From NCBI GenBank assembly GCA_021847485.1, contig JAJZRA010000011.1:1-38680 (forward strand): DNA of 38,680 bases. Reading direction: 5' to 3'. The position numbers and the translations under genes were made by a program. Within the stretch, counting starts at the first letter, position 1. Each line of letters begins with the position of its first letter. Under the pieces are notes generated by a model. The model saw only the letters and a list, made by a program, of their open reading frames with translations. It searched no databases and was not told the DNA's origin. Below are positions 31,278 to 34,777 of the stretch, in pieces. The DNA is from a bacterium (GTDB lineage Bacteria; Elusimicrobiota; Elusimicrobia; Elusimicrobiales; UBA9959).

Positions 31278-32690
31278 ATGGACTTCAGGATCTACAACAC
31301 GATGGGCAGGGAGAAGCAGCTCTTCAAGCCGCTCAAGGCGGGGGAGGCCGGCATCTACACCTGCGGCCCCACGGTCTACCACTACGCCCACATCGGCAAC
31401 ATGCGCAGCTACGTCGCCGAGGACGGCCTCGTGCGCGCTATGCGCTTCCTGGGCTGGAAGGTCAAGCGCGTGATGAACATCACCGACGTGGGCCACCTGG
31501 TCTCCGACGCCGACACCGGCGAGGACAAGATGGAGCAGGGCGCCCGCCGCGAGGGCAAGAGCGCCTGGGACATCGCCAAGTTCTATACCGAGGCCTTCTT
31601 CAAGGATTTCGACGCGCTCAACTGCGCCCGCCCCGACGTGGTGTGTCCGGCCACCGACTACATCAAGGAGATGATAGACCTGGGGCTCACGCTGGAGAAG
31701 AAGGGCTTCACCTACCCGATAGCCGGCGACGGCGTCTATTTCGACACCGCCAAGCTGCCGGATTACGGCAAGCTGGCCGGCCGCGCCCACGTGGAGGGCA
31801 TCAAGGAGGGCGCGCGCGTGGAGGCCAACGCCGCCAAACGCAACCCCGTCGATTTCGCCGTCTGGAAGTTCGCCGCGCCCGGCGAGCAGCGCCAGATGGA
31901 ATGGGACTCGCCGTGGGGCAAGGGTTTCCCCGGCTGGCACATGGAGTGCTCGGCCATGGCGATGAAGCACCTCGGCGACACGATAGACATCCACTGCGGC
32001 GGCGAGGACCACGTGCCGGTGCACCATACCAACGAGATCGCCCAGTCCGAGGGCGCCACCGGCAAGCCCTTCAGCAATTACTGGATGCACGTGCGCTTCC
32101 TCGTCACCGGGGACGCCGGCAAGATGTCAAAGAGCTCCGGCGAGTTCCTCACGCTGGCTTCCGTCACCGGCCGCGGCTACGACCCGCTGGCCTACCGCTA
32201 CTACTGCCTGCTGACGCACTACCGCAAGCAGCTGGAATTCAGCTGGGAGGCCGTGGAGGCCGCCGCCCGCGGCCTGGACGGCCTGCGCGCGCTGGCCCTC
32301 AAGGTCAAGGAAGAGGCCGGCGGCGCCGCGCCCGCCGCCGACCGCGGAGCCAAATATTTCAAGGACTTCGAGGCCGCCCTCGCCGACGACGTCAACCTGC
32401 CCGCGGCCCTCGCCGTGCTGTGGGAGACGCTCAAGGACGGTTCGATACCGGCCGCGCAGCGCTACGCCTTCGCCCTGAAAGCGGAGGAGGTCACCGCGCT
32501 GGACCTCTTCAGGGTAAAAGAGGCCGGCGAACTGGCGCCCGAGCTCGCCGCCCTGATAACCGAGCGCGAGACCGCGCGCAAGAACAAGGATTGGAAGAAG
32601 TCGGACGAGCTGCGCAAAGCGCTCTCCGATAAAGGCGTACTGATAGAGGACACCCCGAAAGGCACCAAATGGAAACTGGCCCGCGGCTGA
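31278..32690 (+). CDS. cysS: Cysteinyl-tRNA synthetase
   Basis: YTCGPTVYHYAHIGNMRSYV, GWHMECSAMAMKHLG, GKMSKSSGEFLTL. Confidence 0.97.
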   Translation: MDFRIYNTMGREKQLFKPLKAGEAGIYTCGPTVYHYAHIGNMRSYVAEDGLVRAMRFLGWKVKRVMNITDVGHLVSDADTGEDKMEQGARREGKSAWDIAKFYTEAFFKDFDALNCARPDVVCPATDYIKEMIDLGLTLEKKGFTYPIAGDGVYFDTAKLPDYGKLAGRAHVEGIKEGARVEANAAKRNPVDFAVWKFAAPGEQRQMEWDSPWGKGFPGWHMECSAMAMKHLGDTIDIHCGGEDHVPVHHTNEIAQSEGATGKPFSNYWMHVRFLVTGDAGKMSKSSGEFLTLASVTGRGYDPLAYRYYCLLTHYRKQLEFSWEAVEAAARGLDGLRALALKVKEEAGGAAPAADRGAKYFKDFEAALADDVNLPAALAVLWETLKDGSIPAAQRYAFALKAEEVTALDLFRVKEAGELAPELAALITERETARKNKDWKKSDELRKALSDKGVLIEDTPKGTKWKLARG

Positions 32691-33661
32691 CACGTCTCGC
32701 TCTCGCCCTGCTGTTCATAACGCCCCTGCTCGCCGCCCCCGCGCGCGCGGCCGGGGCCTCCTCCGGGACCTCCCGGACCTACACCTTGAAGGACGGCTCC
32801 ACGCTGACCTACGGCGAGCCCGGCTTCTGGCGCACCATCGGCGCCATGCCGGCGGACCTGGGCACCTTCGTCACGGACAGCTTTTCGAAAGAGAACCTGC
32901 CGTGGCTGGGCGCCATCACGGCGTCCACGCTGATCCTGATCCATTACGACCAGACGCTCTATAACGGCGCCCGGCGCACCGGCCGCAAGCTGGGCATCTC
33001 CAGGGAAGATAAGACGAAGACGTACATCAAGCTGGGCGGCGTCTCGCTGTTCCGCGGCCCCAGCGACCTGGGATCTACGCTCTATTTCATCGGGGACGGC
33101 TGGATGACCATCGGCGCGTTCGGCTACCTGAAGATCTCCAACCTCTTCGAGCGCGACCCGCGCGCCTCCCAGACCGCCAACCAGCTGGTGGAGGGCCTGC
33201 TCGCCACCGGCCTGGTCACCGAGGTCATGAAGAACGTGACCGGCCGCGAGACCCCGTCGGCCGCCTCGGGCAAGGGCGGCGTGTGGCGCATGTTCCCCGG
33301 CCTGAACGAGTACGTGGCGCACCGCACTCGCTACGACGCTTTCCCTTCCGGCCACCTGGCCTCCAGCGCCATGACCATCACCGTCCTCGCCGAGAACTAC
33401 CCGGACAACAAGTACATCTGGCCGGTGGGCGGCGTGCTGCTGGGCGGGCTCTGCTTCCAGATGATGAACAACGGCGTGCACTGGGCCAGCGATTACCCGC
33501 TGGGCTTCGCCGTGGGCTACGGCATAGGCAAGGCCATCGCCGTTCACGGCCGCACGGCCGCCAGGCGCGGCCCGGCCCCGGTAAAGCAGGCGTCGCTCAC
33601 GCTGGCGCCGTACCTGTCCCCTTACGGCGCGGTGGGCGCGGGCGCGACGTACCGGTTCTGA
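32669..33661 (+). CDS. PAP2 family phosphatase, secreted
   Basis: Signal peptide; DAFPSGHLASSAM and GVHWASDYPLGFAVGYGIGK PAP2 motifs; C-terminal GATYRF. Confidence 0.85.
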   Translation: METGPRLTRLALALLFITPLLAAPARAAGASSGTSRTYTLKDGSTLTYGEPGFWRTIGAMPADLGTFVTDSFSKENLPWLGAITASTLILIHYDQTLYNGARRTGRKLGISREDKTKTYIKLGGVSLFRGPSDLGSTLYFIGDGWMTIGAFGYLKISNLFERDPRASQTANQLVEGLLATGLVTEVMKNVTGRETPSAASGKGGVWRMFPGLNEYVAHRTRYDAFPSGHLASSAMTITVLAENYPDNKYIWPVGGVLLGGLCFQMMNNGVHWASDYPLGFAVGYGIGKAIAVHGRTAARRGPAPVKQASLTLAPYLSPYGAVGAGATYRF

Positions 33662-33730: not shown

Positions 33731-33804
33731 GCGGGCGTGGTTCAATGGTAGAACGGGACCTTGCCAAGGTTCAGACGAGGGTTCGATTCCCTTCGCCCGC
33801 TCCA
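33731..33804 (+). tRNA. tRNA-Gly (anticodon GCC), CCA encoded
   Basis: Acceptor GCGGGCG/CGCCCGC, D-arm TTCAATGGTAGAA, anticodon loop cttGCCaag, TpsiC GGGTTCGATTCCC, TCCA end. Confidence 0.95.
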
Positions 33805-33820
33805 AAGATTTAAGGTACTA

Positions 33821-33845
33821 GGCCGTCCAGATGGACGGCCTTTTT
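33821..33845 (+). terminator. Terminator after tRNA-Gly
   Basis: ggccgtcc agat ggacggcc ttttt. Confidence 0.85.
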
Positions 33846-33932
33846 CTTTATGAGCGGGCGAAGGGAATAATTCCTTATAAAGAACGGTCGCTGCCGCTCC
33901 CTGTCGCCCGCTCCAAAAATTTAGATGAACAA

Positions 33933-33955
33933 GGCCGTCCTCCGGACGGCCTTTT
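33933..33955 (+). terminator. Second terminator in repeat array
   Basis: ggccgtcc tcc ggacggcc tttt. Confidence 0.8.
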
Positions 33956-34081
33956 CCTTTATGAGCGGGCGGAGGGAATCCTTCCTTACGGGGAGGCTCG
34001 CTGCCGCTCGCGTGTCGCCCGCTCCGAAGTGCGGGGGCGGCGGGTTTGACTTTGGGGGCGGGGGATGCGAGAATAGAGGGG

Positions 34082-34777
34082 ATGAAAGATATACAGGTTA
34101 TCGGGTTCGACGCGGACGATACGCTTTGGGTCACGGAGCCGCATTTCCAGGCGGCGGGCAGGGAGTTCGGCGGGCTGATGGCGCCGTGGGCTTCGGCGGA
34201 GAAAGCCGCCGAGGAGCTTTACGCCACGGAGATGGCAAACCTCGGGACCTACGGCTACGGCGCCAAGAGCGTGATGCTCTCGATGCTCGAGACCGCGCTG
34301 CGGCTGGGCGGGGACAAGGTGCCGGCGGCCACGCTGCGCCGCGTGCTGGAGTCCGGCCGGCGGCTGCTGGACTATCCCATGGAGCTGCTGCCCGGGGTGG
34401 AGGGCGTGCTCAAAGAGCTGCGCGGCCGTTACCGCCTGGTGCTCATCACCAAGGGCGACCTGCTGGACCAGGAACGCAAGCTGCGGGGGTCCGGGTTGAA
34501 GGCTTACTTCCACCACGTGCAGATCCTGAGCGACAAGCGCGAGAGCGATTACCGCGACCTGCTGGCCACGCTGGGCGTGGAGCCGCGGCGCTTCCTGATG
34601 GTGGGCAACTCGATGAAGTCCGACATTCTGCCGGTGCTGGCGCTGGGCGGCTGCGGGGTGTACATCCCTTATGAGGTCACCTGGCGGCACGAACATGTGG
34701 AAGGCGCGTCGCCCGATCCGGCCCGCTTCAGGCAGCTGAAGGATATTTCCGGATTGCCGGGCTTGCTGGCCCGCTAA
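34082..34777 (+). CDS. HAD-superfamily hydrolase
   Basis: VIGFDADDTLW motif I; LVLITKGD motif II; MVGNSMKSDILPVLALGG motif IV. Confidence 0.9.
   Translation: MKDIQVIGFDADDTLWVTEPHFQAAGREFGGLMAPWASAEKAAEELYATEMANLGTYGYGAKSVMLSMLETALRLGGDKVPAATLRRVLESGRRLLDYPMELLPGVEGVLKELRGRYRLVLITKGDLLDQERKLRGSGLKAYFHHVQILSDKRESDYRDLLATLGVEPRRFLMVGNSMKSDILPVLALGGCGVYIPYEVTWRHEHVEGASPDPARFRQLKDISGLPGLLAR

Follow-up and report, generated by a model that had tools for sequence, protein, structure and literature searches.

What kind of sequence is the tandem array of tRNA-like segments that lies behind a glycine tRNA gene in an uncultured Elusimicrobiota bacterium? The array was analysed within a stretch of 38,680 nt (the window), in which its gene neighbours are ordinary: cysteinyl-tRNA synthetase (31278-32690), a PAP2 phosphatase (32669-33661) and a HAD hydrolase (34082-34777). 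The host gene, tRNA-Gly(GCC), was located at 33731..33804 with ARAGORN and Rfam (RF00005, 68 bits) on the forward strand, as were all array features given below. The initial annotation had reported that the tRNA 3' end (TCGCCCGCTCC) recurs at 33793, 33904 and 34015 with a spacing of 111 nt, and the repeat search confirmed this. The shared terminator stem (GGCCGTCC/GGACGGCC) with different loops (AGAT in 33821-33840, TCC in 33933-33951) and the acceptor-like pairs GCGGGCG/CGCCCGC were likewise found as described. The proposed AGGGAA/TTCCTT hairpin is made up of the end of an inverted copy and the start of the core segment that follows it.

This inverted copy is the key feature of the array and was absent from the initial annotation: each unit opens with the tRNA 3' end in reverse complement. 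The copied target segment (A, with the start of the adjoining segment B) lies at 33786..33802 and covers the acceptor 3' strand, the T-stem 3' strand and the ATT of the T loop. Its exact reverse complement (A') opens unit 1 at 33852..33868 (17/17 nt) and is found again, with one mismatch, at the start of unit 2 (33963..33979, 16/17 nt). An inverted match of at least 12 nt to the tRNA end arose by chance in 3 of 20,000 shuffles of the next 250 nt.

The remaining parts were assigned by direct-repeat, repeat and core pattern comparison, as follows. The native copy of B (TCGCCCGCTCCA) ends the tRNA (33793..33804) and is followed by the native terminator, stem and T tail (33821..33845), which occupies the equal position in the empty locus of a related genome (G001). 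Behind the A' of unit 1 come a variable dinucleotide (33869-33870), a core of subfamily GGTCGCTGCCGCTCCC with the 3' end CTG (33871..33903), a second B, which is a direct repeat of the tRNA 3' end (33904..33915), and a duplicated terminator with conserved stem and loop TCC (33933..33957). Unit 2 continues with its variable junction (33980-33981), a core of subfamily GCTCGCTGCCGCTCGC with the 3' end GTG (33982..34014) and the third, terminal B (TCGCCCGCTCCG, 34015..34026). The two 111-nt units are identical at 71/111 positions in an ungapped alignment, and their cores belong to different subfamilies (GGTCGC..GCTCCC and GCTCGC..GCTCGC), so the array is not a fresh tandem duplication.

Element sites in general have the form A-B-x-A'-core-B, where B is the direct copy of the tRNA end, A' corresponds to A in reverse complement, and x stands for the duplicated flank, which for Gly-GCC is the native terminator as seen in G001. 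In some cases x is alike between different tRNAs of one genome (Gly-CCC and Gly-TCC in G005), so the element may carry part of x along. The core is about 33 nt long (TTCCTTATgGGGAAGCTCGCTGMCGCTCGCATG; consensus TCCTTATnGGGGAAGCTCGCTGCCGCTCGCATG), shows a C-G to G-C exchange between subfamilies and is bordered at both junctions by 1-4 variable bases.

All compared genomes were draft MAGs. A DNA search matched relatives in 32 of 61 genomes, nearly all of the same genus, and 129 distinct core copies were collected from 29 of the 32 same-genus genomes and a sister genus, so the unit is not a local oddity lacking conservation, the outcome that the initial annotation had linked to neutral duplication. 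A 16-base core pattern gave 0-19 copies per genome over the 32 same-genus genomes (mostly 0 for a reversed-pattern control). With a stricter pattern, 42 stretches were recovered from 85,462 species genomes, all in Elusimicrobiota or in bins with contigs matching this genus. The core was not found in IMG/VR, plasmids or phages, and carriage by viruses, plasmids or phages was rejected on these zero matches. Within the genome of the window, the full unit is confined to this locus; a related core lies behind tRNA-Gly(CCC), and degenerate units lie behind Gly(TCC) and Thr(GGT). No relevant account of the repeat came up in the literature searches, and it apparently represents an undescribed family of ~33-nt mobile repeats that seek tRNA ends.

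The preference for tRNA genes is strong and oriented. Just 3' of a tRNA gene and on its strand lie 94 of the 129 core copies; in the opposite orientation none (0/129) directly follows a tRNA 3' end, and 34 have no tRNA within 400 nt. The host tRNAs are Gly-GCC, Gly-CCC, Gly-TCC, Thr-GGT and Trp-CCA. Of the 44 tRNAs in G018, the most complete genome, 5 carry a core (three Gly, Thr-GGT and Trp-CCA) and the other 39 do not; the empty ones include tRNA-Cys, Leu-CAA and Pro-GGG, which contain ATTCCC, and the T-arm motif alone was thereby ruled out as the target determinant. Away from tRNAs, the core was found at terminators (L094, L101, L115), at gene stops (L109, L124) and in frame within coding sequences, whose open frames measure 225, 428 and 628 aa (L123, L060 and, as a repeated linker, L074). 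The linker in L074 (G005) holds three 42-nt core repeats, in frame, that encode GESSLPLAIPA-type peptide repeats; the 628-aa frame is apparently a methionine synthase.

Filled sites were compared with their empty counterparts in relatives, which showed that A' and core are inserted together with a direct duplication of the target. The duplicated part is B, with or without the spacer, and its length is unusually variable (about 20-60 nt). Empty tRNA loci were found in G001, G029, G033 and G036. At the Gly-GCC locus, G001 has gene and terminator with neither A' nor core, and G010 has two units, between flanks that are 95% and 92% identical. At one gene stop, G026/G027 have the element and G018 and G005 show an empty site; the insert comprises a ~22-25-nt duplication, the A' GCCCGAGT (matching the upstream ACTCGGGC in G027) and the core. 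The L125 site carries the element in G027 but not in G021 and others; it has a ~28-nt duplication and an A', lacking in the empty sites, that is a 22/22-nt inverted copy of the upstream sequence. At L123, 54 nt are inserted in frame into a coding sequence, and eight relatives lack them. Simple copies in G005 have inserts of ~33-34 nt and duplications of 32-37 nt, and in two of them a short inverted repeat was already present in the target. Such repeats are native to the target at L073 and L076, and A' therefore need not be new in every case. Some 'empty' tRNA sites could reflect precise loss, through recombination of the direct repeats, and some two-copy loci may be recombination products, not separate insertions.

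Across hosts, non-tRNA hosts included, A' matches the local sequence, namely the reverse complement of what lies just upstream of the duplicated segment, and it is absent from the examined empty sites. Behind CACC tRNAs A' is GGTGATGGGAAT (GGTG, 9/9), behind CGCC tRNAs GGCGATGGGAAT (GGCG, 35) and behind CCCTT tRNAs GAAGGG. Over 12 nt, 51 of 87 tRNA-linked A' segments match perfectly and 31 have one mismatch. The Thr-GGT copy of G018 (L119) has a hybrid A', with a Gly-like end joined to a Thr-specific T-loop copy, and looks like a Gly-donor arm that was partly re-templated. In tRNAs A' ends at A58. A reverse-transcription stop at m1A58 was rejected as the cause of this T-loop end on the evidence of non-tRNA hosts (L125, L109) and of palindromes running into the 3' flank, both of which favour DNA as the template of A'. 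At the level of compared sequences, insertion, target duplication and a target-derived inverted arm are thus all demonstrated.

The readings offered in the initial annotation were weighed against these data. Its suggestion of scars left by repeated integration at the tRNA 3' end is backed by the dispersed copies, the empty sites and the target duplications. It had also named a tRNA mimic or decoy and a processing substrate as possible roles. These were considered, along with an antisense to the tRNA 3' end and a 3'-trailer processing signal, as forms of a functional RNA cotranscribed with the tRNA; we regard such a role as very improbable. Many species keep the unit at orthologous tRNA loci, A' could pair over 12-17 nt with the tRNA, and the RNA of unit 1 folds at z=-4.3; one core pair is C-G in 116 copies and G-C in 11, letters which the search pattern itself restricted. 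However, folding of the core by itself does not surpass that of shuffled sequence (z=+0.6), nor does a Thr unit stand out (z=+0.5), and every unit sits behind a terminator. The same core follows terminators, lies at gene stops and is read in frame in coding sequences, and the acceptor-like ends vary with the host, which speaks against a mimic or decoy. Changes in A' comprise 6 pair-keeping and 5 pair-breaking transitions and 15 transversions; they show no wobble bias and no preference for keeping RNA pairs. A tRNA mimic or processing signal was rejected on core dispersal and this substitution pattern. The Rfam scan gave nothing above the gathering score except the tRNA itself, and a search for tRNA-like structure (T arm, anticodon-like domain) predicted only tRNA-Gly. 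The tRNA-like look of the units comes from insertion with an inverted target copy, not from tRNA mimicry.

It is likewise very unlikely that replication template switching and slippage at the tRNA made the inverted and the direct copies locally, with no mobile core. Template switching is a known maker of perfect inverted repeats, which it also maintains, by copying the neighbouring strand (PMC8794818), and some loci (L019, L029, L031, L012, L034) are each one long palindrome running through the terminator. But local events cannot produce a near-constant core of ~33 nt at non-homologous loci, the insertions at L125, L109 and L123 are new and lie in unrelated sequence, and the inverted repeats described here are, unlike template-switch hairpins, tied to insertion of that constant core. 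Local template switching is retained solely as the step producing A'.

Somewhat more credit, though we think it unlikely too, is due to mobilisation in trans by a known transposase or integrase system (RAYT/REP, casposase/Cas1, group IIC intron machinery or a tRNA-targeting tyrosine integrase), which many genomes may have lost since. To our knowledge, target-derived inverted arms are not a described product of any of the RAYT, Cas1, group IIC or tyrosine integrase enzymes. REP/BIME repeats are imperfect palindromes of ~30 nt, dispersed and sometimes in tandem, and are mobilised by RAYT (Y1) transposases. The core is a REP-like imperfect palindrome of similar size and arrangement, but Y1 genes do not track it: Y1_Tnp was detected in 27/32 genomes, including the core-less G001 and G029, and was absent from the core-bearing G002, G015, G025 and G031. 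Nor do we know of REPs that target tRNAs, duplicate their targets or carry copied target arms. Group IIC introns insert behind terminator hairpins, where core copies are also found, and a group II intron piece lies inside the copy at L028. The element, however, has no intron structure, RVT_1 was detected in 9/32 genomes and was absent from the core-rich G005, G018 and G026, and these introns make no target duplication. The 32-41-nt duplication around a 33-nt insert resembles Cas1 products, and casposon integration shares with the element the use of tRNA 3' ends, classical integrase and casposon targets, as well as target duplication and tandem insertion (PMC6614799). Against this, a Cas1 homologue was detected in only 2/32 genomes and is missing from the other 30, and the element differs from casposons in its single constant core, its inverted target arm and its lack of fixed terminal inverted repeats. 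The presence of group II intron RT, Y1 transposase and Cas1 does not track core copies, and all three were rejected as mobiliser on these distributions; no full-length autonomous parent of the core was seen. A tRNA-integrated genomic island would have an integrase gene and cargo between tRNA and att copy, for which the 111-nt units of the window are too short.

Among non-autonomous repeats, the element resembles MITEs in being short, dispersed and non-coding and in having a target-site duplication (~20-60 nt) with empty sites in relatives. It was not filed as a MITE because it has no fixed terminal inverted repeats: its terminal inverted arms change with the host target. Rickettsia palindromic elements (RPE) are also short, palindromic, clade-restricted, dispersed and non-coding, and are tolerated in frame in genes, but they measure ~150 bp (PMC10969869), compared with a core of ~33 nt here. 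The tRNA 3'-end preference, the target-derived arm and the long duplications of variable length set the element apart from both.

Other repeats were observed behind tRNAs. A second, unrelated tRNA-targeting family of ~127 nt (TCACGGATAARCCGCATAGCGGYTTTCCGCGAC...GGTCCTCAC) is present in 20/32 genomes; its copies often follow Arg, Met, Ala or Gln tRNAs and have copied T-arm pieces (L317:1633-1758, L320, L341, L347, L353, L363; about 22 copies aligned). Seven copies occur in the window's own genome, G000 (C33, C45, C58, C67, C70, C92, C113). This family forms three hairpins with strong covariation (compensatory changes in 18/41 pairs, few broken) and had no Rfam or IMG/VR match. Further repeat kinds and palindromes were seen in G018 behind tRNAs at L302 (Arg-TCG), L322 (Gln-TTG) and L327/L328 (Ser), including inverted T-arm copies (GAGGATTCGAA) and a GTGTCC..GCGCAGGATAG motif. 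The intron-like piece at L028 (G009, behind tRNA-Gly) is a truncated group II fragment (GTGTGCCCAGCATGAAACC and part of an RT) that begins at the A' start position of other Gly loci and has its end in the core. A further hairpin repeat (GGGGACGCTGATGACTTTATGAC...GTCATAAAGTCATCAGCGTCCCC) lies between the Gly-GCC terminator and the native flank in G001 (L196). In a genome of another genus (G035, L193), a different insert with GACGGGAATC and a direct copy, TTCGCCCGCTCCA, separates tRNA-Gly(GCC) from its terminator and is perhaps an older relative.

Probably, then, the array arose when a small non-autonomous palindromic mobile element, with a core of ~33 nt and restricted to one Elusimicrobiota group, inserted at least twice (or inserted once long ago and was then duplicated). 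Under the best reading, this element prefers tRNA 3' ends and, on inserting, gains its inverted arm as a copy of the target. The target would be cut with a stagger and new DNA synthesised from the break with the core as template. The polymerase would then switch once onto the neighbouring target strand, placing A' between duplication and core, before closure; the 1-4 variable bases at both core junctions fit template switching. Tandem arrays would form when a fresh copy of B is hit again. The tRNA stays intact because new material is placed behind its duplicated 3' end, and no host function is required to explain the array.

More tentatively, the element may retarget itself, its inverted arm being overwritten with a copy of the new target at each insertion. 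If so, it would always carry the reverse complement of its own site, by an undescribed transposition mechanism in which target-primed synthesis is coupled to a template switch, run by a novel Elusimicrobiota enzyme that would be common to at least one further structured element family. The filled and empty sites provide a clean comparative record of an inserted element with a fresh inverted target copy, and they call for caution, since apparent covariation of a pairing with a tRNA can stem from templating and not from selection on RNA structure. A puzzling tRNA-like array is thereby explained, and a repeat family that seeks tRNA ends is documented in a little-studied phylum.
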